A DNA stretch of 64,000 nt from Skermanella mucosa (GTDB lineage: Bacteria; Pseudomonadota; Alphaproteobacteria; Azospirillales; Azospirillaceae): positions 6,098,501 through 6,162,500 of the forward strand of contig NZ_CP086106.1 in the NCBI RefSeq assembly GCF_016765655.2. The letters run 5' to 3'. The position numbers and the translations under genes are program-made. This document shows positions 46,267-64,000 of this stretch, piece by piece. Positions within the stretch are counted from its first letter, which is position 1. Every line of letters begins with the position of its first letter. The notes beneath the pieces are model-generated. The model was given only the letters and a program-made list of their open reading frames with translations. It was not told the DNA's origin and searched no databases.

Positions 46267-46731
46267 TCATGTGTGCGGCGGGGCACCGTGGGCGACGGCT
46301 TCGCGCAATTGCCGGGTCGTGTTCTCCAGGCGCTGGGCCAGCACCCTCATGATCTCCACCGCCATCTGCGGAAACTCGGTGATCATGCGGAAGAACAGGT
46401 CCTTGGAAATGCACAGCGTGGTCATGTCGGTGACGGCGACCACGCTTGCGGTACGCGGCACGTCGCACAGGATCGCGATCTCGCCGATGAAATCGTTGCG
46501 GCCGACCTTGGCGACCGTCAACGGCCCGTTCGGCGTATCGACCGTTACGTCCGCCTCGCCGTCGACGATGATGAACGCGCTGCTGCCCATTTCGTTCTGG
46601 GTGAAAAGCATGTCGCCCGCGTGGAAGGCGACTCGCTCGCTGGTGAAAGCCAGCAGCTTCAGCTTGCTCGTCTCCACGTTGGCGAACATGGGGATCCTGC
46701 GCAGCAGTTCGACTTCTTCGGCAAGGCTCAC
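46267..46731 (-). CDS. Stand-alone cyclic-nucleotide-binding domain protein
   Basis: A 154-residue protein consisting only of a CNB domain. The beta-roll starts ELLRRIPMFANVETSKLKLL, and the phosphate-binding cassette is FIGEIAILCDVPRTASVVAV, with the Glu and Arg needed to hold the cyclic nucleotide. A helical tail follows (MAVEIMRVLAQRLENTTRQL). There is no DNA-binding domain, so it is not a Crp-type regulator. It starts with GTG, 59 bases after the ABC-like gene on the same strand, suggesting that it senses cAMP or cGMP for that transporter; this link is inference. Confidence 0.85.
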   Translation of the reverse strand: MSLAEEVELLRRIPMFANVETSKLKLLAFTSERVAFHAGDMLFTQNEMGSSAFIIVDGEADVTVDTPNGPLTVAKVGRNDFIGEIAILCDVPRTASVVAVTDMTTLCISKDLFFRMITEFPQMAVEIMRVLAQRLENTTRQLREAVAHGAPPHT

Positions 46732-46790: not shown

Positions 46791-49430
46791 TCATTCGGCC
46801 GCCAGCAACTCGTGCATGACGGTGCCCGGCTTGTCCAGGTCCTGATAGCTCCCGTGCTCGGCGATCTGTCCACCCCGGAGCACCAGGGTCTGGTCGAACC
46901 GCCGGGCGATGCTGGGCCTGTGCAAGACCCAGACCACGCCGCGTCCCTGGCGCTCCTCCAGGATCGCGTCATGGATGCGCGTCTGGCTGGCGCCGTCCAG
47001 TCCGGCGGTCGCCTCGTTGATCACCAGCAGGTCGGGATTCTTCAGGATGGCGCGGGCCAGCGCCACCTTCTGCCGCTGCACCCGGGACAGCCGAGAGCCC
47101 GAGACGCCGACATAATGGTCCAGGCCGATCTCCTGGATGGTCTCGCGCAGGTGCAGTTCCTCGATCACCTGTGCCACCAGCCGGCCGACCTTGCCGCCGA
47201 CCTGGGCCTGGCCGTACGCGACCTTTCCGAACAGGATGTTGTCCTGGATGGTCGAGGCCGAGTTGTAGCTGTCCTCGACGAAGAACTCGATGCTCTCGCG
47301 CAAGCCCTCCGGCAGGTCGCGGGCGAAGACGTGGCGCGCTTCCAGCAGGCGCCGCTCCATGCCGTCGTCGATCAGGCCCAGTCGGTGGCGGGCCGGGATC
47401 AGCTTGAAGGGCAGCGCCATCAGCCGGCGCTTCTCTTCCGGCTTCAGGCTGTCGACGCCCTCCTTGTCCGCCTTCGCCACCATCGGCTGGAAGTCGGGCA
47501 GCTCCTCCGAGCTGATGAAGCTGAACTGCTCGAAGAACTGGTGGCCTGGCGGCAGGTCGGCGAACAGTTCGATCATCGTGCGGGCGACCTGGACGCCCAT
47601 GTTCAGGAAGTCGCGCGTCAGCCCCACCTTCTCCAGCACGCCCAGCACATAGGTATTCTCCGCCATGCTGTCGACCGCGAAGACCGGCCCGACCGGGCTG
47701 CCGAACAGAAGGTTTTCGGCCACCGTCGCGTTGTTGTTGAACCGGTCGGGATGCCAGATCTCGACCAGCGACCGCATCGCCGGCTGGGCCAGCTCGGCCC
47801 TCAGCGCCGCCCGCGCCTCCAGGATGCGCGCGACCACGTCCCCGTCGCCGCCTTTCGCCAGCGTGCCGTTAAGGCCCAGCCGGTAGACGTCGTCCGCCAT
47901 ATCCACCATGTCCAGCACGGCGAGCGTGCGCCGGCGCAGGCTCTCGGGGCCGTCGCAGCCGGCGGCGACATAGTCGATCCAGTCCGCGTCCAGCGGGAAA
48001 TCGGTGTTGCCGGCCGCCCGTGCCTCGGAAGACCGGCGGCGGTGCTCGGCCGCCGACCTCTCGTCCCCCTCATGCACGGCCAGCGGGCGGTGCCGCAGCC
48101 CGTAATAGAGGTTGTCGCGCAGGCTGGCGGTGAACATGTAGCTGTTCTGCCCGACATAGGCGATGCGCCGCCCGGTGACCGCCTCCGGCATATGCACCAG
48201 ATCCTGCTCGCCGATCCGGATCCGGCCGGCCGTCGGCATCAGCAGCCGGGCGGCCAGCATGGCGAACTCGTCCCGCCCGGCACCGCCGACGATCGCCGTG
48301 TGCCCGTCGAGCGGCAGCGTGCAGGACACGCCGTCCAGGATCTTCGGCCCGTTGTCCTCGCCGAAAGAGACGTTGGTGAAGACCATCGGCGCGGTCAGCC
48401 GCGTGTCCGGAGCGGCGTCGGTGGCGATCAGGCCGGCGGCCATCAGTTCAGGCACGTCGAACTGCTCGATCACCTGCTCGTACTTGATCCGGATGTCCTC
48501 CTTCATCTGGTAATAGTCCAGCAGCTCCTTCCACGGCCCCGCCAGATCCTTGTAGGCGGCCAGCACGGCGACCAGCGAGCCGAAGCTGATGCTCCCCTGG
48601 ATCACCAGGTACCCGCCGATCGAGTAGAAGAAGAAGGGCGTCAGCTGGTTGATGAAGTTATTGAGGAATTTTATGAAGAATTTGCGCTGGAAGATTTCGA
48701 ACCGGATATCGTAGACGTCGCCGTACCGGTGCGAGATGTCCGCCAGGTGCCAGGCCGAGGTGTCGTGGGCATGGATCTCCTGCACGCCGGAAACCGATTC
48801 GCCGATCCGGTCGGAGATCTGGCGCATCGCCCGCACCCGCTGCTTGCCGAGCTGGTTGACCTTGCGCTGCAGCCGGGGGATCAGCCAGCCCTGCAAGGGG
48901 TAAAGCGAGATCGCCGCCGCCCCCAGGATGGGGTCCTGCATGAAGATGAAGACCAAATAGACCAGCAGCGTGCCGCCCTGGAACACCGGCAAGGCGATCG
49001 AGTCGCCGATGAAGCCGCCCAGCGGCTCGACCTCGGCGGTGATCATCGGGATGATCTCGCCCTGGCTGACCTTGCGGAACCGGGGCAGCGGGAATCGGAG
49101 CACCCTGACATACAGCTCGTAGCGGAGCCGCCGCAGCATGCGCTCGCCCAACCGCCCTTTCAGGGTGTTGATCCGGAACTTGAAGGCGCCGTTGACCAGG
49201 ACCAGCATCAGGAACATCCCTGACAGCAGCATCAGGTACGGCACCTGTTCGAACTGGAAACCAAGGAATTCCTTGGGAAAATTCTGTCCGCCGATGGCGT
49301 CGTTGACGATCTGCTTCGGCAGTTCCAATGAATAGTAAAGGAACGGGAACGAGGACAGGGTGAGCAGGAGTATGATCACCTGCTGCCGCGTACTATAGCG
49401 CAGCACGAAGCGAAAGATGCTCTTTTCCAT
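46791..49430 (-). CDS. ABC-exporter-like protein with a degenerate, expanded ATPase domain
   Basis: An 879-residue protein. Residues 1-310 form an ABC-exporter transmembrane domain with about six helices. The ATPase part (345-879) is abnormal. The Walker A place reads VGGAGRDEF (381-389), lacking the GK[ST] lysine. The segment after the Q-loop occurs three times: TASLRDNLYYG (434-444), TVAENLLFG (569-577) and TIQDNILFG (727-735), separated by long insertions. The signature is GSRLSRVQRQKVALARA rather than LSGGQ, Walker B is LLVINEAT, and His837 is the H-loop. The start ATG at 49430 (MEKSIFRF) fits the exporter N-terminus. ATP hydrolysis is doubtful; it could act as a regulated gate or flippase partner. 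Confidence 0.85.
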   Translation of the reverse strand: MEKSIFRFVLRYSTRQQVIILLLTLSSFPFLYYSLELPKQIVNDAIGGQNFPKEFLGFQFEQVPYLMLLSGMFLMLVLVNGAFKFRINTLKGRLGERMLRRLRYELYVRVLRFPLPRFRKVSQGEIIPMITAEVEPLGGFIGDSIALPVFQGGTLLVYLVFIFMQDPILGAAAISLYPLQGWLIPRLQRKVNQLGKQRVRAMRQISDRIGESVSGVQEIHAHDTSAWHLADISHRYGDVYDIRFEIFQRKFFIKFLNNFINQLTPFFFYSIGGYLVIQGSISFGSLVAVLAAYKDLAGPWKELLDYYQMKEDIRIKYEQVIEQFDVPELMAAGLIATDAAPDTRLTAPMVFTNVSFGEDNGPKILDGVSCTLPLDGHTAIVGGAGRDEFAMLAARLLMPTAGRIRIGEQDLVHMPEAVTGRRIAYVGQNSYMFTASLRDNLYYGLRHRPLAVHEGDERSAAEHRRRSSEARAAGNTDFPLDADWIDYVAAGCDGPESLRRRTLAVLDMVDMADDVYRLGLNGTLAKGGDGDVVARILEARAALRAELAQPAMRSLVEIWHPDRFNNNATVAENLLFGSPVGPVFAVDSMAENTYVLGVLEKVGLTRDFLNMGVQVARTMIELFADLPPGHQFFEQFSFISSEELPDFQPMVAKADKEGVDSLKPEEKRRLMALPFKLIPARHRLGLIDDGMERRLLEARHVFARDLPEGLRESIEFFVEDSYNSASTIQDNILFGKVAYGQAQVGGKVGRLVAQVIEELHLRETIQEIGLDHYVGVSGSRLSRVQRQKVALARAILKNPDLLVINEATAGLDGASQTRIHDAILEERQGRGVVWVLHRPSIARRFDQTLVLRGGQIAEHGSYQDLDKPGTVMHELLAAE

Positions 49431-49624: not shown

Positions 49625-49642
49625 GTGAGCAACCGCACATGA
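49625..49642 (+). promoter_or_regulatory. Five-codon mini-ORF duplicating the start of the next gene
   Basis: GTG-AGC-AAC-CGC-ACA-TGA begins 14 bases before the glycosyltransferase ATG and ends over it (ATGA). The block TGAGCAACCGCA is repeated at the true start. GGAG is ideally placed for the GTG, not the ATG, so translation may enter through the mini-ORF and restart at 49639. Confidence 0.4.
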
Positions 49643-50892
49643 GCAACCGCATCGGGCCAGGCCGGGAAGACATCCGGGAACAGGTGCGCGAGCACAGCCG
49701 CGTGCTGATCTACAGCCACGACACCTTCGGCCTCGGCCATCTGCGCCGCTGCCGGACCATCGCCCATGCCCTGGTCGAGCAGCACAAGGACATGTCCGTC
49801 CTGATCCTGTCGGGGTCGCCGATCATCGGCAGCTTCGATTTCCGCAGCCGGGTCGATTTCGTCCGGATCCCCGGGGTGATCAAGCTGCGCAACGGCGAGT
49901 ACACCTCGCTGAACCTGCACATCGACATCGAGGAGACGCTCGCCATGCGGGCGTCGATCATCCGCCACACGGCGGAGATCTTCGATCCCGACCTGTTCAT
50001 CGTCGACAAGGAGCCGCTGGGCCTGCGAGGCGAGGTGCTGGAGACCCTCCAGGTGCTCAAGGCCCGGGGCACGCCCCTGGTGCTCGGCCTGCGCGACGTG
50101 ATGGACGAGCCGTCGGCCCTGGGGCCGGAATGGGAGCGCAAGAAGGTTATGCCGGCGCTCGACCGTCTCTATGACGAGCTGTGGGTCTACGGCCTGCCGC
50201 AGATCTGCGACCCGCTCGAAGGCGTCCGGGTGCCGCCCTCGGTGCGCCGCAAGATGGTCTATACCGGATACCTGGAACGGAGCGCCCCGGTCCACCCCGC
50301 CCTGCCCGACATGCCGGACGAGCCGTTCATCCTGGTCACGCCCGGCGGCGGCGGCGACGGCGAGGACATGGTGGACTGGGTCCTGCGCGCCTACGAGCAC
50401 GATCCCAGGCTGCCCCACCGCGCCCTGATCGTGCTCGGCCCCTTCATGCAGCGCGAGCTTCAGAACGAGTTCGCGGCGCGGGCGGCCGCCTTGCCCAAGG
50501 TCGAGACGCTGACCTTCGAGGCCCAGCTCGAAAGCCTGATGGCGAAGGCGATCGGCGTCGTCGCCATGGGCGGCTACAATACCTTCTGCGAGATCCTGTC
50601 GTTCGACAAGCGGGCGCTGATCGTGCCGCGCATGGTGCCCCGGCGGGAGCAGTATATCCGCGCCAGCCGCGCGCAGGAGCTGGGGCTGGTCAGCATGCTG
50701 CCCGACGACGGCGTGCGCGATCCGGGCGCCATGGCGACGGCGCTGCGCCAGCTGCCGCAGCAGCAGGTCCCCTCCGACGTGATCGTCCCCGGCCTGCTCG
50801 ACGGGCTGGAGAACGTCAACCGCCTGGCCACCCGCCATCTGGCGGAACCTCGCCGCCCCGCGCGCCGCGCCACCCTGCGCCGCAGGGCCTGA
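49639..50892 (+). CDS. MurG-like predicted glycosyltransferase (COG4671 type)
   Basis: A 417-residue GT-B-like protein. The N-terminal domain opens with VLIYSHDTFGLGHLRRCRTI, which carries the glycine-rich loop and GHLRR motif of the COG4671 predicted glycosyltransferases. The C-terminal donor-binding domain has FILVTPGGGGDGEDMVDWV and the motif GVVAMGGYNTFCEILSFDKR. The tail is basic. Substrates are unknown. It opens a plus-strand cluster of glycan genes and is divergent from the ABC-like gene, with 208 bases between them. A second member of the same family lies at 54.7 kb. Confidence 0.85.
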   Translation: MSNRIGPGREDIREQVREHSRVLIYSHDTFGLGHLRRCRTIAHALVEQHKDMSVLILSGSPIIGSFDFRSRVDFVRIPGVIKLRNGEYTSLNLHIDIEETLAMRASIIRHTAEIFDPDLFIVDKEPLGLRGEVLETLQVLKARGTPLVLGLRDVMDEPSALGPEWERKKVMPALDRLYDELWVYGLPQICDPLEGVRVPPSVRRKMVYTGYLERSAPVHPALPDMPDEPFILVTPGGGGDGEDMVDWVLRAYEHDPRLPHRALIVLGPFMQRELQNEFAARAAALPKVETLTFEAQLESLMAKAIGVVAMGGYNTFCEILSFDKRALIVPRMVPRREQYIRASRAQELGLVSMLPDDGVRDPGAMATALRQLPQQQVPSDVIVPGLLDGLENVNRLATRHLAEPRRPARRATLRRRA

Positions 50893-50909
50893 CCCATAGG
50901 CTGTTGATC

Positions 50910-52139
50910 TTGACTGTCTGCGTCGTCGTCAAGGGCTGGCCCCGGCTGTCCGAAACCTTCATCGCCCAGGAACTGGTCGGCCTGGAACGGCGCGGGGTCG
51001 ACCTCGCCCTGTTCTCCCTGCGCCACCCGACCGACAAGACCGCCCACGCGCTGCACCATCAGCTCCGGGCGCCGGTGACCTACCTGCCGGAATATCTCCA
51101 CGACGAGCCGGCCCGGGTCGCCCGCGCGCTGGCGGCCGCCCGCGCTCTGCCGGGTTGGAGCCGGGCGCGGGCGGTCTGGCTCCGCGACCTGGCGCGCGAC
51201 CGCACCCGCAACCGGGTCCGCCGGTTCGGGCAGGCGGCGGTGCTGGCCGCCGAGCTGCCGCCGGGCACCAGCGGGATCTACGCCCATTTCCTGCACACCC
51301 CCGCCAGCGTCGCCCGCTACGCCGCCCTGATGCTCGGCCTGCCCTGGAGCTTTTCCGCCCACGCCAAGGACATCTGGACCATTCCCGAGTGGGAGAAGCG
51401 GGAAAAGCTGGCCGAGGCGCGCTGGGGCGTCACCTGCACCCGCCTCGGCCATGCCCATCTGGCAGAGCTGGCGCCCGCGCCCGGCCGTGTCCAGCTGCTC
51501 TACCACGGGCTGGAGTTCGACCGCTTTCCGGCCGAGGTGCCGGCGCGGCCTCCCCGGGACGGCGGCGACCCGGCCGACCCGCTGGTCCTGCTCTCGGTCG
51601 GCCGCGCGGTGGAGAAGAAGGGGTTCGACGTGGCGCTGGAAGCCCTGGCGAGGCTGCCCGCCGGCCTGCACTGGCGCTGGGTCCATATCGGCGGAGGGAC
51701 CGGGCTGAAGACCCTGAAGGCGGAGGCCGGACGGCTGGGCCTCGACGGCAGGATCTCCTGGCGGGGCGCCCAGTCCCAGGACGTGGTGATCCGGCATTAT
51801 GCCGAGGCCGACCTGTTCTTCCTGCCCAGCCGGCTGGCGCGCGACGGCGACCGCGACGGACTGCCCAACGTGCTGATGGAGGCCCAGGTCATGGGGCTTC
51901 CGGTGGTCGCGACCCGCATGGCCGCCATCCCCGAGCTGGTGGTCGAGGGCGAGACCGGCATCCTGGTCGATCCCGGCGATGCCGCGGGCCTCGCCGAAGC
52001 CCTCGCCGCCCTCGGCCGCGATCCCGAAGCGCGCCGGCGTCTGGCGGCGGCCGGCGCCAGCCGCGTCCGCGGGCGGTTCAGCGCCGGGGCCGGGCTCGAC
52101 CATCTGGCCGGGCTGCTGACCGCCGGCGGTCCGGACTAA
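50910..52139 (+). CDS. Glycosyltransferase family 4
   Basis: A 409-residue GT-B enzyme. The N-terminus is TVCVVVKGWPRLSETFIAQE, typical of GT4 colanic-acid-type transferases. The donor site includes LLSVGRAVEKKGFDVALEAL and the retaining-enzyme EX7E region GLPNVLMEAQVMGLPVVATR. No ATG is available; TTG at 50910 has AGG nine bases upstream, and TTG at 50904 is the alternative. It begins 17 bases after the previous gene and lies 15 bases before the next. It probably adds a sugar to a surface polymer or lipid. Confidence 0.9.
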   Translation: MTVCVVVKGWPRLSETFIAQELVGLERRGVDLALFSLRHPTDKTAHALHHQLRAPVTYLPEYLHDEPARVARALAAARALPGWSRARAVWLRDLARDRTRNRVRRFGQAAVLAAELPPGTSGIYAHFLHTPASVARYAALMLGLPWSFSAHAKDIWTIPEWEKREKLAEARWGVTCTRLGHAHLAELAPAPGRVQLLYHGLEFDRFPAEVPARPPRDGGDPADPLVLLSVGRAVEKKGFDVALEALARLPAGLHWRWVHIGGGTGLKTLKAEAGRLGLDGRISWRGAQSQDVVIRHYAEADLFFLPSRLARDGDRDGLPNVLMEAQVMGLPVVATRMAAIPELVVEGETGILVDPGDAAGLAEALAALGRDPEARRRLAAAGASRVRGRFSAGAGLDHLAGLLTAGGPD

Positions 52140-52154
52140 GGGGACCGGCCCGGC

Positions 52155-53279
52155 ATGCGGATCGCCTTCTACGCTCCCCTCAAGGCGCCGACGCACCCCA
52201 CGCCCTCGGGCGACCGCCGCATGGCGCGGCTGCTGATGGCGGCGCTGCGCCATGCCGGGCACCGGGTCGATCTGGCCTGCACCTTCCGGAGCTGGGACGA
52301 CGGCGGCAGGCCCGGCCGGCACCGGCGCCTCGCCGATCTCGGCGGCCGGCTGGCGGGCCGGCTGGCGGACCGGCTGCGGCACGACCCGCCCGACCTGTGG
52401 TTCACCTACCACCTCTACCACAAGGCGCCGGACTGGCTGGGTCCCGCCGTCAGCGAAGCGCTGGGCATTCCCTACGTGGTCGCCGAGGCCTCCTTCGCGC
52501 CCAAGCAGGCCGGCGGCCCCTTCGCCCTAGGCCATGAAGCGGCGGCGGCCGCCATCGCCCGCGCCGACGCCGTGATCTCCCTCAACTCGGCCGACGCGGA
52601 GTGCCTGCATCCCCTGCTCCGGTCGCCCGGCCGGCTGACGCTGCTGCGCCCCTTCGTCGAGCCGCCGGCCCCGCGCGACCGCGCCGTGGACCGCGCCGGC
52701 CTCGCCCGCTCGCTGGGGCTGGATCCGGAGGTGCCCTGGCTGCTGGCCGTCGGCATGATGCGGGGCGGCGACAAGCAGCGTTCCTTCCGCATCCTGGCCC
52801 GTGCCCTGGAACGGCTCGGCGGTCACGACTGGCGGCTGCTGGTCGTCGGCGACGGGCCGCGCCGGGCCTGCGTCGAGGAAAGCTTCGGCCGCGTCGATCC
52901 CGGCCGGCTCCGCTTCCTGGGCGCGCTGCCGCCCGACCGGCTGGCCGCCTGCTACGCCGCCGCCGACCTGATGGTGTGGCCGGCGATCAACGAGGCCTAC
53001 GGCATGGCGCTGCTGGAGGCGCAGGCCGCCGGCCTGCCCGTCGTGGCCGGCCGCACCGGCGGCGTGCCCGACATCGTGCGCGACGGCTCGACCGGCCTGC
53101 TGGCCCCGGTCGGGGACGAAATCGCCTTCGCCGACGCCATCGCGGCGCTGCTGTCCGATCCGGCCCGGCGAAGCGCCCTCGGCCGGGAAGCCGCCCGCGT
53201 CGCGGCGGCCGAGCACGGCTTCGACGGCGCGTCCCATACGCTCGATACCCTGCTCCACAGCCTCGCAAGGTCCCGATGA
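52155..53279 (+). CDS. Glycosyltransferase family 4
   Basis: A 374-residue GT-B protein. The N-terminal region MRIAFYAPLKAPTHPTPSGD with RRMARLLMAALRHAGH binds the acceptor. The C-terminal region has LAVGMMRGGDKQRSFRILAR and the nucleotide-sugar motif EAYGMALLEAQAAGLPVVAG, then GGVPDIVRDGSTGLLAPVGD, all typical of family 4. AGGGG precedes the ATG. Its stop overlaps the histidine-phosphatase start by four bases. Confidence 0.9.
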   Translation: MRIAFYAPLKAPTHPTPSGDRRMARLLMAALRHAGHRVDLACTFRSWDDGGRPGRHRRLADLGGRLAGRLADRLRHDPPDLWFTYHLYHKAPDWLGPAVSEALGIPYVVAEASFAPKQAGGPFALGHEAAAAAIARADAVISLNSADAECLHPLLRSPGRLTLLRPFVEPPAPRDRAVDRAGLARSLGLDPEVPWLLAVGMMRGGDKQRSFRILARALERLGGHDWRLLVVGDGPRRACVEESFGRVDPGRLRFLGALPPDRLAACYAAADLMVWPAINEAYGMALLEAQAAGLPVVAGRTGGVPDIVRDGSTGLLAPVGDEIAFADAIAALLSDPARRSALGREAARVAAAEHGFDGASHTLDTLLHSLARSR

Positions 53280-54044: not shown

Positions 54045-54083
54045 TCGCCGACGAACCGCCACGGCACCGACGCCCCCATTTCA

Positions 54084-54669
54084 TCATGGCCGGACTTGAT
54101 CCGGCCATCCACGCGCAAACTCCGCAACGCCGGTTTGCACGTGGATGCGCGGGTCAAGCCCGCGCATGACGAAGAAGGAAATGCTTGGCGCCGTGAAGTC
54201 TTCACCCAGCGAGAGGCAGGCACCACCACCCCCTTCTCGTCATGGCCGGACTTGATCCGGCCATCCACGCGCGAACTCCGCAACGCCGGTCTGCGCGTGG
54301 ATGCGCGGGTAAACCCCGCGCATGACGAGGAAGGAAATGCTTGGCGCCGTGAAGTCTTCACTCAGCGAGAGGCAGGCACCGACACCCCCTTCTCGTCATG
54401 GCCGGACTTGATCCGGCCATCCACGCGCAAACTCCGCCGCGCCAGTTTGCATGTGGATGCGCGGGTCAAGCCCGCGCTTAACGAGGAAGGAAATGCTTGG
54501 CGCCGTGAAGTCTTCACCCAGCGAGAGGCAGGCACCACCACCCCCTTCTCGTCATGGCCGGACTTGATCCGGCCATCCACGCGCGAACTCCGCCACTCCG
54601 GTCAGCGCGTGGATGCGCGGGTCAAGCCCGCGCATGACGAGGAAGGAAATGCTTGGCGCCGTGAAGCCT
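54084..54669. repeat. Four-copy 156-bp tandem repeat with internal palindromes
   Basis: Copies begin at 54084, 54240, 54396 and 54552, an exact 156-base period; the last copy is cut at about 54669. Each contains ATGGCCGGA-CTTGA-TCCGGCCAT and GCGCGGG-TCAAG-CCCGCGC. These two form the arms of a larger imperfect inverted repeat, followed by a spacer with GGAAATGCTTGGCGCCGTGA. The palindrome class is common in alphaproteobacterial intergenic DNA, but tandem amplification including the spacer is unusual. Because 156 is a multiple of three, a false reading frame runs through it. With the repeat before it, it fills the 828-base gap between two genes. Confidence 0.9.
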
Positions 54670-54688
54670 TGCCATGGCCGGCCGGATC

Positions 54689-55867
54689 ATGACGAATCAT
54701 GACGTTCGGCCCCCCCTGAAGGCCCTCGTATGGGTGCAGCACCTGCTCGGCATCGGGCATGTCCGGCGGGCGGCGCTGATCACCCGCGCCATGGCGGCGG
54801 CGGGGCTGGACGTCACGGTGGCGTCCGGCGGGTTCCCGGTCGCCGGCGTCGATTACGGCGATGCCCGCGTGGTGCAGCTGCCGCCGGCCCGGTCGGCGGA
54901 CAAGAGCTTCAAGCGCCTGGTCGGCGAGGGCGACCGGCCCCTGGACGACGCCTGGCGGGAACGCCGCCGCGCGGCGCTGCTGGAGCTCGCGGACGCGGTC
55001 GATCCCGACATCCTGCTGCTGGAAACCTATCCCTTCGGCCGGCGTGCGTTCCGCTTCGAACTGCTGCCGCTGCTGGAACGTCCTCGGCGCCCCAGGGTCG
55101 TCGCCGCCTCCGTCCGCGACATCCTGGTGGCGAAGGACGATCCCGCCCGCGAGGACGAGATGGCCGACGTGGCGCGGCGATACCTGGACCTCGTGCTGGT
55201 CCACGGCGACCCCTCCGTGGTGCCGTTCGACGCGACCTTCCCGCAGGCGCACCGGATCGCGGACCTGATCCGCTACACCGGCTACGTCGCCCCGGCCCGC
55301 GCCCCGGCCCGCACGCCGACCCGCCCGGCCGCGAAACCGCACGGCGGCGGCGCCGGGGAGGTGATCGTCTCGGTCGGCGGCGGCGCCGTGGGATTGCCGC
55401 TGCTGCGGACCGCCCTGGCGGCGCGCCCGCTGACACCCCTGGCGTCATCCCCCTGGCGCCTGCTCGCCGGTCCCGACATCGGCGAGGCCGACTTCCAGGC
55501 CCTGCGCGACGGCGCCCCCCCCGGCGTGACCGTCGAACGGGCGCGGCCCGACTTCCCGGAGCTGCTGTCCCGCTGCGCCCTCTCGGTCAGCCAGGCGGGG
55601 TACAACACGCTGATGGACCTGATGCAGGCCCGGTGCCGCGCCGTGGTGGTGCCCTTCGCGGCCGGGAACGAGACGGAGCAGACCGACCGCGCCCGCCTGT
55701 TCGAGCGGCGCGGATTGCTCCACATCCTCCCCGAGGACGGGTTGACGCCGGAACGCCTGGCCGAGGCGGTCGGCCGCGCCATGGCGGCACCCCCGCCCGC
55801 CGGTTTCACCCCGGATGTGGACGGCGCCGCCACCACCGCCCGGCTGCTGGTCGAGGCCGCGTCATGA
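54689..55867 (+). CDS. MurG-like predicted glycosyltransferase (COG4671 type), second copy
   Basis: A GT-B-like protein of 392 residues, related in plan to the one at 49.6 kb. It opens KALVWVQHLLGIGHVRRAAL with the GIGHVRR loop. The donor side has VIVSVGGGAVGLPLLRTALA and LSVSQAGYNTLMDLMQARCR, followed by VVVPFAAGNETEQTDRARLF. An ATG at 54674 would add five residues, but they derive from repeat-like sequence, so I use 54689. It directly follows the tandem repeat and overlaps the deacetylase gene by four bases. Confidence 0.83.
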   Translation: MTNHDVRPPLKALVWVQHLLGIGHVRRAALITRAMAAAGLDVTVASGGFPVAGVDYGDARVVQLPPARSADKSFKRLVGEGDRPLDDAWRERRRAALLELADAVDPDILLLETYPFGRRAFRFELLPLLERPRRPRVVAASVRDILVAKDDPAREDEMADVARRYLDLVLVHGDPSVVPFDATFPQAHRIADLIRYTGYVAPARAPARTPTRPAAKPHGGGAGEVIVSVGGGAVGLPLLRTALAARPLTPLASSPWRLLAGPDIGEADFQALRDGAPPGVTVERARPDFPELLSRCALSVSQAGYNTLMDLMQARCRAVVVPFAAGNETEQTDRARLFERRGLLHILPEDGLTPERLAEAVGRAMAAPPPAGFTPDVDGAATTARLLVEAAS

Positions 55868-56646
55868 CGAATGATGACATCTGGGCCGCCCTGGCGCGCG
55901 AACTGGACCTGTGGGCCGAGGCCGGGCGGACCGCCACCCTGTGGTGGCGCGACGACGACGCGGTTTCACCTTCCCCCGCCCTGGCCCGCCTGCGCGACGC
56001 CGCCACCGCCGCCGACGTGCCGGTGGCGCTCGCCGTGATCCCGGCGGGTGCCACGCCGGAGCTGGCGGAGGAACTGCGGCGCTGGCCCGGCGCCTCGGTG
56101 CTCCAGCACGGCCTGTCCCACGCCAACCACGAGACCCCGCCGTCCAAGAAGACCGAGCTGGGTCCGGCCAGGAGCGTCGAGGCGGTCCTGGCCGACCTCG
56201 CCGAGGGATGGCGGCTGCTGCGCCCCTTCGATCCCCTGCCCGTCCTGGTCCCCCCGTGGAACCGGATCGCGGCGGAGGTGGCCGCCCGGCTGCCGGCCAT
56301 CGGCTATGCCGGCCTGTCCACCTTCAACGCCCGGCCCCGCCCTTGTCCCGTGCCTGGACTGGTCCAGGTCAACACCCATGCGGATGTCATCGACTGGCGA
56401 GGCGGCGGCGGTTTCGCCGGGACGGAGGCCGTGATCGGGGCCATGGTCCGCCACCTCGCGGCGCGCCGGACCGGCGCCGCCGATCCGGACGAGGCGACCG
56501 GGCTGCTGACCCACCATCTGGTGCATGACGACCCTTGCCGCCGCTTTCTCGACCGGTTCCCGGCCGCCGCGTCGGAGCACCCGGCCGTCCGCTGGCTCGG
56601 TGCCCCCGCCCTTTTCAGGAGTCCCTCCTTCAGGTGTCCCCCGTGA
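55864..56646 (+). CDS. Polysaccharide deacetylase family protein
   Basis: A 260-residue protein of a CE4-like branch. TATLWWRDDDAVSPSPAL holds the catalytic/metal aspartates, LQHGLSHANHETPP the HxxxH metal pair, and PVLVPPWNRIAAEVAARLPA the conserved PPWN motif. LLTHHLVHDDPCRRFLDRF supplies the C-terminal histidine. It probably removes acetyl groups from the glycan made by the neighbouring transferases. Its start and stop overlap the adjacent genes (ATGA and GTGA). Confidence 0.87.
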   Translation: MTNDDIWAALARELDLWAEAGRTATLWWRDDDAVSPSPALARLRDAATAADVPVALAVIPAGATPELAEELRRWPGASVLQHGLSHANHETPPSKKTELGPARSVEAVLADLAEGWRLLRPFDPLPVLVPPWNRIAAEVAARLPAIGYAGLSTFNARPRPCPVPGLVQVNTHADVIDWRGGGGFAGTEAVIGAMVRHLAARRTGAADPDEATGLLTHHLVHDDPCRRFLDRFPAAASEHPAVRWLGAPALFRSPSFRCPP

Positions 56647-57179
56647 AACAGTTCCGCTATCCGGCTCCCCCCCTGTATGGCGACTATGCCCGCGCCGCCG
56701 CCGGGCTGGCGCTGACCGGCATTCCGCCGCTGCTGGTCCCGCTCAGCCCCTGGGTCGCGGTACCCATGATGATGGCGGCGGCCCTTTTCGTGGTGTTCGG
56801 CGCCCGGACGGCCCAGCGTCACGCCACCGTCATCGAAATGGACGATAACGGGATCAAGGCCCGCGGACCCTTGGGCGGTTCGATTTCGTGGGAACATTTG
56901 GCTCAGGTACGTTTAAACTACTATTCTACTCGTCGGGATCGCGGCCTCGGCTGGATGCAGCTCAAGCTCAGGGGCGCCGGTTCCGGGGAGACCGTCCGGC
57001 TCGAATCGACTCTCGACGGCTTCGACGAGATCGCCGAGCGGGTGGCGGACGTCGCGTGCAGGAAGGGGATCGGGATGACCGAGACGACGATCAGCAATTT
57101 CGCGGCACTCGGCATCGACGCCGATCCGCAGGCCGGCATGGATGCCCCGGGCGTGCGGACGGCGCGCTGGTCCCGATGA
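56643..57179 (+). CDS. Membrane protein of unknown function with a PH-like domain
   Basis: A 178-residue protein. Two adjacent hydrophobic segments (about 22-58) are followed by a soluble beta-rich part ([20 protein letters not shown], then [20 protein letters not shown]) with the look of a bacterial PH domain. I do not recognise a named family. GTG at 56643 overlaps the deacetylase stop, and its own stop overlaps the ATG of the peptide transporter ATPase, so it links the glycan cluster and the transporter on one transcript. Confidence 0.65.
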
Positions 57180-59068
57180 CCGACCTGCTGAGCGTCCGCG
57201 ACCTGCATGTGGAGTTCCGCGTCGCCGAGGGCGTGATCCATGCCGTGCGGGGGATCTCGTTCAGGGTCCGGCCCGGCGGCACGGTGGCCCTGGTCGGTGA
57301 GTCCGGCTCCGGCAAGTCGGTGGTCGCCCAGACCATCATGGGCATCCTGCCCCGCCCCGCCCATATCACGCGCGGCGAGATCCTGTTCGCCGACCCCCGC
57401 CTGCCCGGAACCGTGGATATCGCCAGGCTCGATCCGGAAAGCCGGGCCATGCGGGCGATCCGCGGCGGCAACATCTCGATCATCTTCCAGGAGCCGATGA
57501 CCTCGCTGTCGCCGCTGCACACGGTCGGCGACCAGGTGGGCGAGGCGGTCATGCTCCACCGCGACGCCGGCAAGGGGGAGGCGCGCGAGTTGACCCGCGA
57601 CATGCTGCGGCTGGTGGGCTTTCCCGATCCGGCCCGCGCGCTCGACACCTACCCGTTCGAACTGTCCGGCGGCCTGCGCCAGCGCGCCATGATCGCCATG
57701 GCGCTGATCTGCCGCCCGGCGCTGCTGATCGCGGACGAACCGACCACCGCGCTGGACGTCACGATCCAGGCGCAGATCCTCAAGCTGATCCGCGACCTCC
57801 AGGGCGAACTCGGCATGGCGGTGCTGATGATCACCCACGACCTGGGCGTCGTCGCCAACGTGGCCGAGGAAGTGATCGTGATGTACCGGGGCGAGGTCAT
57901 GGAAGCCGGCGAGATGCGCGACATCTTCGCCAAGCCGAGGCATCCCTACCTGAAGGCGTTGCTGCGCGCGGTGCCGCGCTTCCACATGGAGCCGGGCGAG
58001 CGGCTGGTGCCGATCCGGGAGATCAAGTCGGCCGGCGGCAAGCTGCTGGAGAAGACCCGGGAACCCTGGCCGACCGGCGCCGACGCGGCCGGCCCGCTCC
58101 TGGCCGTCTCCAGCATCAGCAAACGGTTCGAGACCGGCGGCACCGGCTGGTTCAACCGCAACCGGACGGGCGCCGGCGTGCTGGCGGTCGACGATGTCAG
58201 CTTCGAGATCCGCCGCGGCGAGTGCCTGGGGCTGGTCGGCGAATCCGGCTGCGGCAAGACGACCCTGTCCAAGATCCTGATGCGGGCGCTGAAGCCCGAC
58301 ACGGGGGCCATCCTGTTCAACGACCGGGGCCGCCTCGTCAACGTGCTCGACCTGGAGGACGACGCCCTGGTCGCCTTCCGGCGCAAGCAGCAGTTCATCT
58401 TCCAGGACCCGTTCGGCTCGCTCAACCCGCGCATGACAGTGTTCGACATCGTGGCGGAGCCGCTGGTGATCCACGGCATCGGCGACGACGAGCATCGCCG
58501 GACGCTGGTCAAGGAGCTGATGAACCTGGTCGGCCTGGACGTGCGGCACCTGAAGCGCTACCCGCACAGCTTCTCCGGCGGCCAGCGGCAGCGCATCGGC
58601 ATCGCCCGCGCCCTGGCCCTGCGGCCCGACCTGCTGATCTGCGACGAGCCGGTGTCGGCCCTGGACGTGTCGATCCAGGCCCAGATCCTGAACCTGCTGA
58701 AAGACCTCAAGGAGAAGCTCGGGCTGACCTACCTGTTCATCTCCCACAACCTGGCCGTGGTGGACTATATCGCCGACCGGATCATGGTGATGTGCCGGGG
58801 CCGGATCGTGGAGGTGGCGACCCGCGCCGCCCTGTTCCGCAATCCGGTGCATCCCTATACCCGCGCCTTGCTCTCGGCCGTGCCGGACCCCGATCCGGAA
58901 TGCCGGCTCGACCTCGAGATGCTGGGCGAAGGCCGCGCCTCCGATCCGGGCGCCTGGCCGGCACCCTTCACCATCGACGGCACGGCCCAACCCGGCATGA
59001 TCGACGTGGGCGACGGCCACCTCGTCCGCGCGACCGCCCGCCCCGCCCTCCTGGATCTGGCATCATGA
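57176..59068 (+). CDS. Peptide-type ABC transporter, fused double ATPase
   Basis: A 630-residue protein holding two complete Opp/Dpp-type ATPase domains. The first has Walker [13 protein letters not shown], signature [15 protein letters not shown] and Walker [15 protein letters not shown]. The second, from about 310, has [27 protein letters not shown] and [14 protein letters not shown]. Each ends in the oligopeptide-type tail ([28 protein letters not shown]). DppD and DppF are thus fused, as in YejF. The four-gene operon continues with the binding protein. Confidence 0.95.
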
Positions 59069-60975
59069 GATTCCACCGCATCCGCGCCGGCTGCCTGGCC
59101 CTGGCCGCGATCACCTTCCTCGCGACGGTCCCCGCGTCCGCTGCGGTCGAGACGCCCTTCTTCGCCGAGCAGGTCGCCGCCGGAAAGCTGCCGCCGATCG
59201 GCGAGAGGCTGCCGGCCGAACCGAGAGTCGTGACATTCGATGACGATGGCGCGCAGCAGGGCCAGCCGGGCGGCGACATGAACATGCTGATGGCACGGGC
59301 GAAGGACGTACGCATCATGTTCGCGTACTTCTATGCCCGTCTGATGACGTACACCACGGACCTGACGCTCGAACCGGACATCCTCCGCTCGATCGACATC
59401 GAGGACAACCGGGTCTTCACCCTCCATCTCCGGCCCGGTCACCGCTGGTCGGACGGGTCGCCCTTCACCGCCGAGGATTTCCGCTATTGGTGGGAGGACG
59501 TGATCCTCAACAAGGACGTGCCGCCCTTCGGCGCCCCGCCGGAGATGCTGGCCGGCGGCGAACCTCCCGTTTTCGAAGTGCTGGACGAGACCACGGTACG
59601 CTATACCTGGAACAGGCCGAACCCGCTGTTCCTGCCGGCCCTGGCGGCGGCACGGCCGCTGGAGATCTTCGGTCCCGCGGCCTACCTGAAAAAGTTTCAC
59701 GTGAAATACGCCGACCCCGCCGAGCTGAAGGATCAGGTCAAGGCGGCGGGGCAGAAGAGCTGGGCGCACCTGCACAACCGCATGGACAACGCCTACGACA
59801 ACGACAATCCCGACCTGCCGACCCTCCAGCCCTGGATCAACACCACGGCGGCGCCGGCCGAGCGGTTCGTCTTCGTGCGCAATCCCTTTTATCACCGGGT
59901 CGATCCGGCGGGCAACCAGCTCCCCTATATCGACCGGCTGCTGGTGCAGATCGCCGACGGCAAGATCATCCCGGCGAAGGCCGGGGCCGGCGAGGCCGAC
60001 CTCCAGGCGCGCTATCTGCGCTTCGACAACTACACCTTCCTGAAGCAGGCGGCGAAAAGGAACGGCTACAAGGTCGACCTGTGGAAGACCGGCAACGGCG
60101 CCCATCTGGCGCTGTTCCCCAACCTCAACGCGGCCGATCCGGTCTGGCGCGACCTGTTCCGCGACGTCCGCTTCCGCCGGGCGCTGTCGCTCGGCATCGA
60201 CCGCGACGAGATCAACCAGGCGATCTATTACGGCCTCGCCAAGCCTTCCAACAACACGGTGCTGCCCCGCTCGCCCCTGTTCCGGCCGGAATACCGGGAC
60301 GCCTGGACCCGGTTCGACGTGCGCGAAGCCAACCGGCTGCTCGACGAGATGGGGCTGAACAAGCGGGGCGGCGGCGACATCCGGCTGATGCCCGACGGGC
60401 GCGCCATGGAGATCATCGTCGAGACGGCGGGCGAGAGCACGGAGGAGGTGGACGTCCTGGAACTGATCGCCGACAGCTGGCGGAAGATCGGGGTCAAGCT
60501 GTTCACCAAGCCGTCCCAGCTGGAGGTGCTGCGCAACCGGATCTATGCCGGCCAGACCCTGATGGCGATCGGCAAGGGCGTGGACAACGGCATCCCCACG
60601 GCCGACATGGCGCCGGCCGAGTTCGTGCCGATGGACCAGAACCAGTACCAATGGCCGAAATGGGGCCAGTTCTACCAGACCGGCGGCACTGCGGGCGAAA
60701 AGCCCGACCTGCCCGCCGCGGTCGAGCTGATGGACCTGATGGGGCAGTGGCGGACGGCGCCCGACACATCGGCGCGGGCGGAGGTCTGGCACCGCATCCT
60801 GGGCATCCATGCCGACCAGGTCTTCACCATCGGGCTGGTCAACGGCACCCTCCAGCCGGTCGTCGTGCGCTCCACCCTGCGCAACGTGCCGGACGAGGGG
60901 ATCTTCAATTGGGACCCGGGCGCCCATTTCGGCATCTATCGGCCGGACACCTTCTGGTTCGCCAAGCCGGGATGA
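59065..60975 (+). CDS. Peptide-type ABC transporter substrate-binding protein
   Basis: A 636-residue periplasmic protein of solute-binding family 5: signal peptide ending PASA near residue 27, then [20 protein letters not shown], the family signature, and a C-terminal lobe with [20 protein letters not shown]. It is longer than DppA (about 535), in the YejA/large-ligand range, so a sizeable peptide or other bulky ligand is plausible. Start overlaps the ATPase stop (ATGA). Confidence 0.92.
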
Positions 60976-61038
60976 ACCGCGGAACGATGATCTGACGACG
61001 GACAATCAACAGGCGCGACGAAGGGACGATCGATCAAC

Positions 61039-62037
61039 ATGCTGGGCTTCCTCGTGCGGCGGATCATGGTGATGATCCCCACCCTTCTCGCGATCAGCGC
61101 GATCACCTTCGTCATCATCCAGCTTCCGCCCGGCGACTACCTGACCACCCTGATGACCGAACTGGAAAGCCGGGGCGAGGCGATCGACGAAAGCCGCCTG
61201 CAGTTCCTGCGGGAGGCGTACGGCCTGGACAGGCCCATGATCGAGCAGTATTTCGTCTGGGTCGGCGGCATGCTGACCGGCGACTACGGCTTCTCCTTCG
61301 AATACAACCGCCCGGTCGCCGACGTGATCGGCGACCGCATGCTGCTGACCATCGTGGTGTCCTTCGCGACCATCGTGTTCATCTGGGTCGTGTCGTTCCC
61401 GATCGGCATATATTCGGCGACCCACCAGTACAGCCTGGGCGACTACGGCCTGACCTTCCTGGGCTTCCTGGGGCTGGCGACGCCCAATTTCCTGCTGGCC
61501 CTGGTGCTGCTCTATTTCGCCAACGTGACCTTCGGCACCTCGATCGGCGGCCTGATGGACCCGGTCTACCTTGATGCGCCGTGGAGCTGGGGCAAGGTGC
61601 TGTCGATCCTCGAACATCTCTGGATCCCGGTGATCGTGATCGGGACCAGCGGAACCGCCGGCATGATCCGGCGCCTGCGCGCCAACCTGCTGGACGAGCT
61701 TCACAAGCAGTATGTGGTGACCGCCCGGGCCAAGGGCCTGTCGCCGGGCCGGGTGCTGTGGAAATACCCGCTGCGGATGGCGATCAATCCCTTCATCTCC
61801 GACATCGGCAACCTGCTGCCGCAGATCGTCTCGGGCGCCGCGGTGGTGTCCATTGTGCTGTCGCTGCCGACCACGGGGCCGATGCTGCTCGACGCGCTGC
61901 GCAGCCAGGACATGTATCTTGCGGGGTCCTTCCTGATGTTCCTGGCGCTGCTGACCGTGGTCGGCGTCTTCCTGTCCGATCTGGCGCTGGCGGCGCTCGA
62001 CCCGCGCATCCGGCTCGAAGGCGGGGCGACGCGATGA
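61039..62037 (+). CDS. Peptide-type ABC transporter permease (DppB-like)
   Basis: A 332-residue permease with about six helices. The start MLGFLVRRIMVMIPTLLAIS is the DppB signature, and the EAA loop TARAKGLSPGRVLWKYPLRM docks on the ATPase. It follows the binding protein by 63 bases, preceded by GAAGGGA, and overlaps the second permease by four bases. Confidence 0.94.
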   Translation: MLGFLVRRIMVMIPTLLAISAITFVIIQLPPGDYLTTLMTELESRGEAIDESRLQFLREAYGLDRPMIEQYFVWVGGMLTGDYGFSFEYNRPVADVIGDRMLLTIVVSFATIVFIWVVSFPIGIYSATHQYSLGDYGLTFLGFLGLATPNFLLALVLLYFANVTFGTSIGGLMDPVYLDAPWSWGKVLSILEHLWIPVIVIGTSGTAGMIRRLRANLLDELHKQYVVTARAKGLSPGRVLWKYPLRMAINPFISDIGNLLPQIVSGAAVVSIVLSLPTTGPMLLDALRSQDMYLAGSFLMFLALLTVVGVFLSDLALAALDPRIRLEGGATR

Positions 62038-63206
62038 CCGCCGATCCCATGGGCACGGACCGGCTGGAACACTACGTCTCGACGGCGCCGTTCGACCCCT
62101 ACTCCGTCGAGCAGATGTCGCCGGAGCAGGAACGCTATTTCATGGCGTCCCAGTGGCGCATGATGTGGTGGAAGCTGAAGCGCCACCGGCTGGCGGTGCT
62201 GTCGGCGGTGGTCCTGGGGTTGATGTATTTCACCACCCTGATCTCCGAGTTCCTGTCGCCCTACGCCCTGGACAGCCGGCACATCCACCATATCTACGCG
62301 CCGCCCCAGTCGGTCCACCTGTTCCACGACGGCAGCTTCGTCGGGCCGTTCGTCTACGGCTACGACTACCGGCTCGACATGGACACGCTCCAGCGCGTCT
62401 ACACGGTGGACAGGACGGACGTGCAGCCGATCCGCTTCTTCTGCCGGGGGGACCCCTACGAATTCTGGGGCCTGTTCCCGGCGGACCTGCACCTGATGTG
62501 CCCGGCCGAGGGCGGCACGCTGTTCCTGCTCGGCACCGACCGGCTGGGCCGCGACATGCTGAGCCGCATCCTCTACGGCACCCGCATCTCCCTGACCGTC
62601 GGGCTGATCGGCATCTCCATCAGCTTCGTCCTGGGCATCGTGATCGGCGGCATCGCCGGCTATTACGGCGGCTGGATCGACAACGTGATCCAGCGCTTCA
62701 TCGAGGTGCTGCGCTCCTTCCCGGAGCTGCCCCTGTGGATGGCGCTGTCGGCCGCCCTGCCGGTCACCTGGAGCCCGATCCTGATCTATTTCGGGATCAC
62801 GCTGATCCTGGGGCTGCTGGACTGGACCGGCCTCGCCCGCGCCGTCCGCTCCAAGCTGCTGGCCCTGCGGGAGGAGGATTTCTGCACCGCCGCCCAGCTG
62901 ATGGGCGCCAGCCCCCGGCGGATCATTGGCCGGCACCTGCTGCCCAGCTTCATGAGCCACCTGATCGCCTCGGCCACCCTGTCGATCCCCGGCATGATCC
63001 TGGGCGAGACGGCGCTGTCCTTCCTGGGCCTCGGCCTCCGGCCGCCGATCACCAGCTGGGGCGTGCTGCTGAACGAGGCCCAGAACATCAACGTCGTGGC
63101 CCTCTATCCCTGGCTGATGCTGCCGGTGGTCCCGGTGATCGTGGTGGTGCTGGCCTTCAACTTCCTGGGCGACGGGCTGCGAGACGCCGCCGATCCCTAT
63201 CGTTGA
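62034..63206 (+). CDS. Peptide-type ABC transporter permease (DppC-like, extended)
   Basis: A 390-residue permease. The transport core begins at about 165 with LLGTDRLGRDMLSRILYGTR and has the EAA loop CTAAQLMGASPRRIIGRHLL. Before it are a cytoplasmic N-terminus of about 50 residues, one helix (about 58-78), and an unusually long periplasmic loop (80-165; includes HIHHIYAPPQSVHLF), giving about 90 residues more than DppC. Such extensions also occur in YejE-type permeases. It completes the transporter. Confidence 0.93.
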   Translation: MTADPMGTDRLEHYVSTAPFDPYSVEQMSPEQERYFMASQWRMMWWKLKRHRLAVLSAVVLGLMYFTTLISEFLSPYALDSRHIHHIYAPPQSVHLFHDGSFVGPFVYGYDYRLDMDTLQRVYTVDRTDVQPIRFFCRGDPYEFWGLFPADLHLMCPAEGGTLFLLGTDRLGRDMLSRILYGTRISLTVGLIGISISFVLGIVIGGIAGYYGGWIDNVIQRFIEVLRSFPELPLWMALSAALPVTWSPILIYFGITLILGLLDWTGLARAVRSKLLALREEDFCTAAQLMGASPRRIIGRHLLPSFMSHLIASATLSIPGMILGETALSFLGLGLRPPITSWGVLLNEAQNINVVALYPWLMLPVVPVIVVVLAFNFLGDGLRDAADPYR

Positions 63207-63210
63207 TCGT

Positions 63211-64000
63211 CTAAAGGTTGAGGACCATCCCTTCGAAGGCAACCAGGGTTCCCGGCCGCATGGCCTCCGCCTCGGCCGCGATTCCATCCATGACGCTGTC
63301 GTCGTGGTTCGGCTCGTGGTGGAAGATCACCGCCCGCCCTACCCCGGCGGCATCGGCGACCCGGCACCCCTCCTGCCAGGTCGAATGGCCCCAGCCCACA
63401 TGGCGCGGGTAGGCCGCGTCGGTGTACATGCCGTCATAGACCATCACGTCGGCCCCTCGCGCCAGGTCGAGCACCGCCGGGTCGAGCCCCTCGGCGCGGT
63501 GTTCCGTGTCGGTCACGATCGCCAGCACCCTGCCCTCGTACTCCACCCGGTAGCCGCAGCACCGGTTGGGATGGTTGAGCGGACCCGTCCTCAGGGTGAT
63601 CCCCGGCCCCGGCGTCAGCGTCGCCCCGCATTCGAAATCGTTGAAGGTGCAGGAATGGTCGAACGCGGAGAGCGGCACCGGGAACAGGGGGGCTATCATC
63701 ATGTCGCACAGCACGGACCGGATCGTCTGCGTCGGCGGCAGGTGGCCCGCCCACAGGCGCAGCCGGTTGCGCGGGTCGAAAGCCGGGGCGAAGAACGGCA
63801 GCCCCGCCACATGGTCGTAGTGGGTGTGGGTGAAGAACAGGTCGAGGTCCAGCGGCGCCTCGGCCGCCAGCAGGGTGCCGAACGGACGAATGCCCGTTCC
63901 GGCATCGAAAATCATGAGGTGATCCCCGCACCGGACCTCGATGCAGGTGGTGTTGCCGCCATATCGCGCCGTCTCGGGTCCAGGCGACGGGATGCTGCCT
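63211..64000 (-). CDS. MBL-fold metallo-hydrolase (5' end outside the window)
   Basis: The frame runs off the right edge: it starts before GSIPSPGPETARYGGNTTCI, so the N-terminus is missing. Metal ligands are clear: FTHTHYDHVAGLPFF (HxHxDH), the Asp/His in IVTDTEHRAEG, WGHSTWQEG and the late HHEPNHDDSVMDG. The overall type is a beta-lactamase-fold phosphodiesterase or hydrolase of the PhnP/RNase Z-like group, often annotated only as MBL fold. It is convergent with the permease gene, four bases apart. An internal ATG (63915) is not the real start. Confidence 0.88.
   Translation of the reverse strand, partial: GSIPSPGPETARYGGNTTCIEVRCGDHLMIFDAGTGIRPFGTLLAAEAPLDLDLFFTHTHYDHVAGLPFFAPAFDPRNRLRLWAGHLPPTQTIRSVLCDMMIAPLFPVPLSAFDHSCTFNDFECGATLTPGPGITLRTGPLNHPNRCCGYRVEYEGRVLAIVTDTEHRAEGLDPAVLDLARGADVMVYDGMYTDAAYPRHVGWGHSTWQEGCRVADAAGVGRAVIFHHEPNHDDSVMDGIAAEAEAMRPGTLVAFEGMVLNL

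Follow-up and report, generated by a model that had tools for sequence, protein, structure and literature searches.

The stretch of DNA examined here (the window; 64,000 nucleotides of Skermanella mucosa, contig NZ_CP086106.1, positions 6,098,501 to 6,162,500) contains at window positions 46791..49430, on the reverse strand, a gene for an ATP-binding cassette (ABC) exporter-like protein, P0001. The product of 879 amino acids, counted from the ATG (the coordinates include the stop codon), comprises a transmembrane domain (TMD) and a nucleotide-binding domain (NBD) in which the unit formed by the Q-loop, the helical subdomain and the signature helix is triplicated. The next gene downstream, on the same strand (46267..46731), encodes a protein with a cyclic nucleotide monophosphate (cNMP)-binding domain (PF00027, E = 1.5e-19). 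No published description of the P0001 family was found in a literature search that left most subscription journals outside its reach; the family is conserved and widespread and apparently uncharacterised.

Exporter fold and nucleotide-binding motifs

All parts of P0001 described below lie on the reverse strand. The TMD (residues 1–334; 48429..49430), the most conserved part of the family, matches Pfam ABC_membrane over residues 53–291 (E = 3.6e-18; 66.7 bits, cut-off 28), and the NBD matches ABC_tran as two separate stretches (E = 1.6e-12; 48.6 bits, cut-off 25). The N-terminal lobe of the NBD (residues 335–411; 48198..48428) was compared, as segment 335–425, with a canonical NBD profile, for which five exporters whose GK[ST] and LSGGQ motifs are intact were taken from the same genome, which it matches with an E-value of 1.1e-20. 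The best NCBIfam matches are HepA (E = 1.3e-53) and MsbA (E = 1.3e-52), both far below the equivalog cut-offs (182.4 versus 725 bits and 179.1 versus 602 bits, respectively). By fold and descent P0001 is a type I ABC exporter, sharing the TMD family and the NBD fold with MsbA, HepA and PCAT, whereas its motifs are not those that define such an exporter as an ATPase. Unlike these exporters, it carries a degenerate Walker A, signature and Walker B, and about 300 extra residues arising from the added copies of the unit.

The Walker A segment reads VGGAGRDEF (residues 381–389; 48264..48290) instead of GxxGxGK[ST], the signature is LSRVQ (residues 781–785; 47076..47090) instead of LSGGQ, and Walker B, DLLVINE (residues 800–806; 47013..47033), ends in N805-E806, departing from the usual Asp followed by the catalytic Glu. 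The Q-loop Gln (Q428) and the H-loop His (H837; 46920..46922) are both retained. An initial annotation of the window had listed the altered Walker A, signature and Walker B together with the preserved TMD and H-loop, and each of these is present in P0001.

The same motifs were counted across the family in 88 full-length sequences (loci up to L099, mostly the best matches of each search with some hand-picked divergent ones), from which 17 that were at least 90% identical to others and the two members of a divergent sister form (L078 and L079) were removed, leaving 69 orthologs; some of the orthologs from loci added later enter the neighbourhood counts given below, and none enters the motif counts. 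Six residues were scored: the P-loop Lys, the following Ser/Thr, the Q-loop Gln, the Walker B Asp, the catalytic Glu and the H-loop His. None of the 69 orthologs has all six, one has five and 14 have none. A GK[ST] motif is found in six orthologs, none of which possesses the full catalytic set. The Q-loop Gln is present in 12, the catalytic Glu in 34 and the H-loop His in 26; Walker B ends in D-E in six and in N-E in 21. The exact LSGGQ is absent from all 69, although the Gln of the signature persists in 56. The loss of the P-loop lysine, noted in the initial annotation, therefore describes P0001, where Arg takes its place, and does not extend to the family, about half of which keeps Lys; it is the Mg-binding Ser/Thr that has mostly been replaced, being Asp or Glu in 50 of 69 orthologs. 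The resulting [KR][DE] pair occurs in 39 of 69 and looks selected rather than random, for which a salt bridge closing the P-loop may be one explanation.

On a tree of TMD columns, GK[ST] changes state three times, the Lys 15 times and the catalytic Glu, His and Gln 10–12 times each; the tree was made by a quick method with very long outgroup branches, and the counts carry no direction of change, that of the ancestry of GK[ST] included. Judged from these motif counts, a non-hydrolytic state probably holds throughout the family, as had been suggested for P0001.

The gene is under purifying selection, because the ratio of nonsynonymous to synonymous substitution rates (dN/dS) is 0.083, 0.110 and 0.133 against three close orthologs (L019, L009 and L010). 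Values of 0.27 and 0.52 against the more distant L011 and L012 (dS of 1.2 and 0.6) are not relied on. Full-length orthologs at approximately 32–98% identity share the layout of P0001, which together with the low dN/dS rules out a local pseudogene; the possibility that orthologs with intact GKS/T motifs would reveal purely local decay is excluded by the conserved layout and by the incomplete catalytic set of the six orthologs that do have such a motif. Constraint is unevenly spread. The TMD has a mean column entropy of 1.44, compared with 1.96–2.25 elsewhere, and holds 44 of the 60 most conserved positions. The N-terminal lobe of the NBD is among the least constrained parts (dN/dS of 0.36, 0.15 and 0.24 against L019, L009 and L010), and the catalytic columns 386, 387, 428, 805, 806 and 837 rank only 313–688 of 879 by conservation, whereas the repeat Asn columns described below rank 27–49.

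The repeated unit of the NBD

Three segments of the form T/S-x-x-x-N-[LI]-x-x-G follow one another in the NBD. Repeat 1 (residues 412–545; 47796..48197) contains the canonical Q-loop strand, the sequence DNLYYG, a helical unit and an LEAR helix with R540; its motif occupies residues 434–444 (48099..48131), with S436, N440 and G444. Repeat 2 (residues 546–708; 47307..47795) is an extra copy, with the family pattern YN..AT..ENLLFG and an LEAR helix containing R699; its motif spans residues 565–577 (47700..47738), with N565, T569, N573 and G577. Repeat 3 (residues 709–797; 47040..47306) is the canonical helical subdomain leading into the signature helix, VALAR, with R793, and has its motif at residues 723–735 (47226..47264), with T727, N731 and G735. 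The initial annotation had placed three such segments at about residues 434, 569 and 727, separated by insertions of about 110–150 residues. The three segments stand, with the first beginning at S436 and with spacings of 133 and 158 residues.

Profiles of the repeats were cut from the 69 orthologs (repeat 1, residues 412–545; repeat 2, 546–708; repeat 3, 706–782) and compared with one another. The E-values are 7e-15 for repeats 2 and 3, 2.7e-7 for repeats 1 and 3 and 4.9e-7 for repeats 1 and 2, and the remaining 25 of the 28 pairs among eight family segments have probabilities of at most 5%. Column-shuffled profiles never reached the observed score (0 of 60 for each of the three pairs), and a chance resemblance of the three segments is ruled out on these two grounds. 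Against the canonical NBD profile, the Q-loop of repeat 1 scores E = 2.1e-8, repeat 3 (segment 706–815) 2.5e-22 and the C-terminal lobe 2.1e-26, while repeat 2 alone gives a weak match with a probability of 11%.

The Asn of each motif is nearly invariant (N440 in 67, N573 in 69 and N731 in 69 of the 69 orthologs), and N565 (68) and G735 (69) are similarly conserved. Each copy ends in an Ala-Arg helix, whose Arg is kept in 69 (R540), 69 (R699) and 68 (R793) orthologs. In ordinary NBDs the Ala-Arg helix is the helix after the signature, and that of repeat 3 is indeed this helix. The stretch from the Q-loop through the helical subdomain to the signature helix thus appears to be present three times, since every copy holds both the Asn after the Q-loop and the final Ala-Arg helix. 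The duplication of the ATPase helical subdomain proposed in the initial annotation is borne out by the profile comparison and the shuffles, and extends further, beginning with the strand of the Q-loop and taking in the signature helix. The assignment has two bases: up to the helical subdomain it follows from the profile scores, and for the end helix from the invariant residues. By themselves the helices that close repeats 1 and 2 resemble each other only weakly (probability 26%), and the Ala-Arg helices are left unpaired in global alignments, so that they are equated with the signature helix on account of the invariant Ala-Arg and the similar order of elements in the model.

That model, an AlphaFold2 prediction of residues 335–879 from ten sequences, has a mean predicted local distance difference test (pLDDT) score of 86.0 and a predicted template modelling (pTM) score of 0.79. 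In it each unit is predicted to begin with a strand, followed by a short DNL helix, then by other helices and lastly by a long Ala-Arg helix. The best match reported by VIA is the NBD of ComA (Z = 28.4; root-mean-square deviation 1.9 over 237 residues, covering model positions 9–543 of 545). The 50 VIA matches listed, among them ComA, IrtAB, PCAT1 and MsbA, have Z-scores of 26.6–28.4 and align 237–248 residues to ordinary NBDs, mostly of exporters, over nearly the whole span of the model. Because so few residues are aligned across nearly the whole model, the predicted structure is one complete NBD fold with about 300 added, mostly helical residues. The initial annotation had named, as an outcome that would speak against it, a single canonical NBD with the three segments in unrelated folds; the model does hold a single complete NBD, and the segments do not have unrelated folds. 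Foldseek alignments to P-glycoprotein, which were split and had deviations near 30, were set aside. A search of the repeat-region profile against solved structures gave no convincing match (best E = 0.028).

Partner genes and proposed function

The genes around P0001 homologues were compared in 97 distinct full-length loci, 96 of which have at least 600 bases downstream. This set leaves aside L066 and L069, whose available sequence stops close to the gene, as well as the sister forms L078 and L079, canonical exporters, loci with a TMD only and any locus identical to another in its first 200 matched residues. In 85 of 96 loci the same strand carries a cNMP gene at most 700 bases downstream, and in another 10 the domain is fused to the C-terminus of the ABC protein, giving 95 of 96; in L030 one gene sits between the ABC gene and the downstream cNMP gene. 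Pfam confirmed the fused domain in all six long orthologs tested. The Gly, Glu and Arg of the ligand cassette bind the nucleotide in CRP-type domains, and they are present in 96, 89 and 95 of 97 sequences (the 96 loci, with the copy in the P0001 window counted twice). The aligned sequences point to a contrast across the family between a degenerate ATP site and a preserved cyclic-nucleotide site. The ABC and cNMP proteins may make physical contact also where they are separate, and the pairing as a whole lends indirect support to the regulated function that the initial annotation had proposed.

An ABC exporter has been connected with a cNMP domain before. HetC of Nostoc has an N-terminal cNMP-binding domain that is required for function and can bind ppGpp in vitro; it also has a peptidase domain of the C39 type, and one of its ATPase residues is essential (PMC10986499). 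The P0001 family resembles HetC in joining exporter and cNMP domain, and differs in that the latter is C-terminal or separate and that the ATPase motifs are degenerate; Pfam detected no peptidase family such as C39, either in P0001 or in the six fused orthologs scanned. As side observations, the 19-kb stretch of Mesorhizobium WSM1497 (L048) that includes the ABC and cNMP pair also contains two genes with adenylate/guanylate cyclase domains, and PADLOC models of TIR effectors that carry a cNMP domain match the protein at 46267–46731 (best E = 8.9e-14), probably through the shared domain type alone.

On the other side of P0001 lies a group of glycan-related genes, all on the forward strand and assigned by Pfam: glycosyltransferases GTa (Glyco_tran_28_C; 49639..50892, divergent from P0001), GTb (Glycos_transf_1; 50892..52139, start assumed), GTc (Glyco_trans_1_4; 52155..53279) and GTd (Glyco_tran_28_C; 54674..55867). 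They are followed, also on the forward strand, by a homologue of genes that carry the annotation polysaccharide deacetylase in rhizobia (55864..56646, start assumed), which was recognised by BLASTP against the rhizobial neighbours and whose product has no Pfam match at E = 0.01. A divergent GTa homologue lies at most 700 bases away in 56 of 96 loci with at least 1 kb upstream, and the trio of GTb, GTc and GTd is complete in 43 of the 61 loci that have at least 4.9 kb upstream. Three rhizobial regions have the glycosyltransferase genes arranged in a different order; polysaccharide deacetylase is annotated alongside them, as is nucleotide sugar dehydrogenase in two of the regions. A tandem array in which a unit of 156 bases is repeated 3.8 times (91% matching) lies between the glycosyltransferase genes at window positions 54073–54670; by eye its translation resembles a dispersed repeat element. 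Past the glycosyltransferases are an oligopeptide-type ABC importer (ATPase, substrate-binding protein and permeases; 57170–63206), with similarly annotated importer genes adjoining the cluster on plasmids of rhizobia and Azospirillum, and a metallo-beta-lactamase fold protein (63211–63915); a gene of that fold is also found in the Mesorhizobium and Phyllobacterium clusters.

The reading that accounts best for these findings, and to which we assign an even chance, is a non-hydrolysing exporter scaffold controlled by cyclic nucleotides, with an enlarged coupling region, that serves a glycan pathway. In ordinary exporters the unit from the Q-loop to the signature helix docks on the coupling helices of the TMD. 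At the origin of the family this unit would have come to exist in three copies, in half-transporters that are probably homodimers and no longer hydrolyse ATP. The catalytic residues would then have drifted, while the repeat Asn and Arg of each copy and the TMD stayed under strong selection. Control would have shifted to the cNMP-binding domain, downstream or fused, with its intact ligand cassette; binding of a cyclic nucleotide, or of a similar ligand such as ppGpp, may move the enlarged NBD and thereby open, close or switch the TMD, which might in turn serve the neighbouring glycan-synthesis cluster. A prokaryotic version of the logic of CFTR and SUR is possible, if doubtful: the homodimeric scaffold, without ATP hydrolysis, could be a cNMP-gated channel or gate in which the triple coupling unit relays the cNMP signal to the membrane. 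In CFTR and in SUR the loss of catalytic residues is likewise combined with a regulated, non-pump function. Like these and other ABC proteins with degenerate sites (TM287/288, TmrAB and TAP), P0001 has lost catalytic residues; unlike them, it has a single NBD that is itself degenerate and contains a triplicated helical unit.

Several results weigh against the scaffold reading. One ortholog, L025, retains five of the six catalytic residues. Of the 69 orthologs, 37 have the P-loop Lys, and 58 and 59 have the first and second of the two P-loop glycines, respectively; because these remain, many family members may, by their motifs, still bind ATP without hydrolysing it. The Arg of P0001 is no proof of lost ATP binding either, since the degenerate site of ABCG5/G8 likewise has a Walker A change from Lys to Arg (PMC7756269). 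Of 44 conserved TMD positions, 17 fall within the presumed coupling loops, no enrichment over the roughly 15 expected from length (10 and seven against about six and nine in windows 90–135 and 184–250, which were placed from general exporter topology), a result that neither supports nor rules out gating. The full-length AlphaFold2 model, also from ten sequences, is poor (pLDDT 64.9; pTM 0.40), and only the NBD model was used. L126 has no cNMP gene within 7 kb, the sole such case among the 96 loci, and none was seen in the short flanking stretches examined of the sister forms L078 and L079. The link to glycans is not universal, as none of GTb, GTc and GTd is nearby in 17 of the 61 loci, and the distribution is patchy, with three sampled genomes of the host's own family (G051, G175 and G271) giving no match at 1e-60.

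Some of these residues would fit a degenerate half of a heterodimer, as in TM287/288, TmrAB and TAP, whose canonical partner is encoded elsewhere and whose pumping the cNMP protein merely regulates. Degenerate sites are common in type I exporters that still transport, and known degenerate-site exporters keep one consensus site beside the degenerate one (PMC7756269); five exporters with intact GK[ST] and LSGGQ are found in the source genome, and the P-loop Lys retained by many orthologs is in keeping with this. We nevertheless consider it unlikely: no exporter half recurs among the linked genes of seven annotated regions, as judged by annotation names alone, and the arrangement leaves the triplication unexplained. 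Moreover, the degenerate sites of ABCC1, ABCC7 and ABCC9 bind ATP (same source), whereas here the Ser/Thr is mostly acidic. The conserved glycines can also be taken to mean that ATP is still bound and slowly hydrolysed by rearranged residues, the acid after the P-loop Lys or Arg having acquired a new role, in a cNMP-regulated exporter of glycans or glycolipids. The [KR][DE] pair, more uniform than free drift would suggest, the persistent signature Gln and the highly conserved TMD would suit such a pump, which seems improbable to us in view of the scarcity of the catalytic Glu, His and Gln and their repeated changes on the tree, and of an acid in place of the Mg ligand, which should disfavour MgATP. 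Very unlikely, finally, is a scaffold or receptor that transports nothing, its TMD anchoring the cNMP domain and gathering glycosyltransferases at the membrane. The degenerate NBD, the gene cluster conserved in many loci, the existence of TMD-only paralogues and the lack of enrichment in the coupling loops agree with it, but the concentration of the most conserved positions in the TMD appears to exceed the needs of a mere anchor.

In many Alphaproteobacteria strong selection has thus preserved an exporter fold that lacks its ATPase motifs and has a multiplied coupling unit, a natural separation of the coupling part from the engine. The P0001 family offers a direct test of the role of the Q-loop/helical unit apart from catalysis and bears on how ABC scaffolds become regulated gates, as well as on what cyclic nucleotides control at the membrane in rhizobia and in relatives of Azospirillum, where an uncharacterised glycan cluster is often adjacent.

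Distribution and related forms

Whole-protein matches at E ≤ 1e-60 were found in 131 of 385 sampled Alphaproteobacteria genomes, a count that takes in the source genome and a few partial or TMD-only matches. The repeat-region profile matches 31 of 398 sampled genomes of the phylum, all 31 in the same class. Relatives include Skermanella, Inquilinus and an Azospirillaceae metagenome-assembled genome and, on plasmids (254 records), Rhizobium, Sinorhizobium, Ensifer, Mesorhizobium, Phyllobacterium, Shinella, Methylobacterium, Azospirillum and Tritonibacter; none was found among phage records.

On pSymB of S. meliloti 1021 the ortholog (L155, 841666–844432) is split over two overlapping frames, while strain ml46 has a single annotated gene, so that the split is either a real frameshift or a sequence error. 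MsbA2 of S. meliloti (SMb21191) was rejected as the ortholog: the ChvI-bound fragment of its operon lies at 938 kb of pSymB (PMC3687685; see also PMC12239276), and the ortholog at 841.7–844.4 kb. The msbA homologue SMb20813, named in PMC10945364, may be the S. meliloti ortholog.

The sister form (L078, L079 and L159–L163; family code f70) has a recognisable repeat region and a much diverged TMD, the ABC_membrane score of L078 being slightly below the Pfam cut-off. The source genome also encodes a TMD-only paralogue (L002:1198–2559; G000:C1:117569–118495) that is 45% identical to residues 4–321 of P0001 and has no NBD according to Pfam; it adjoins frames that by eye resemble a resistance–nodulation–division (RND) efflux pump and a CusF-type copper protein. 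Matches of the same extent occur in short frames of G107, G379, G705 and G708 and, outside the class, of G490.

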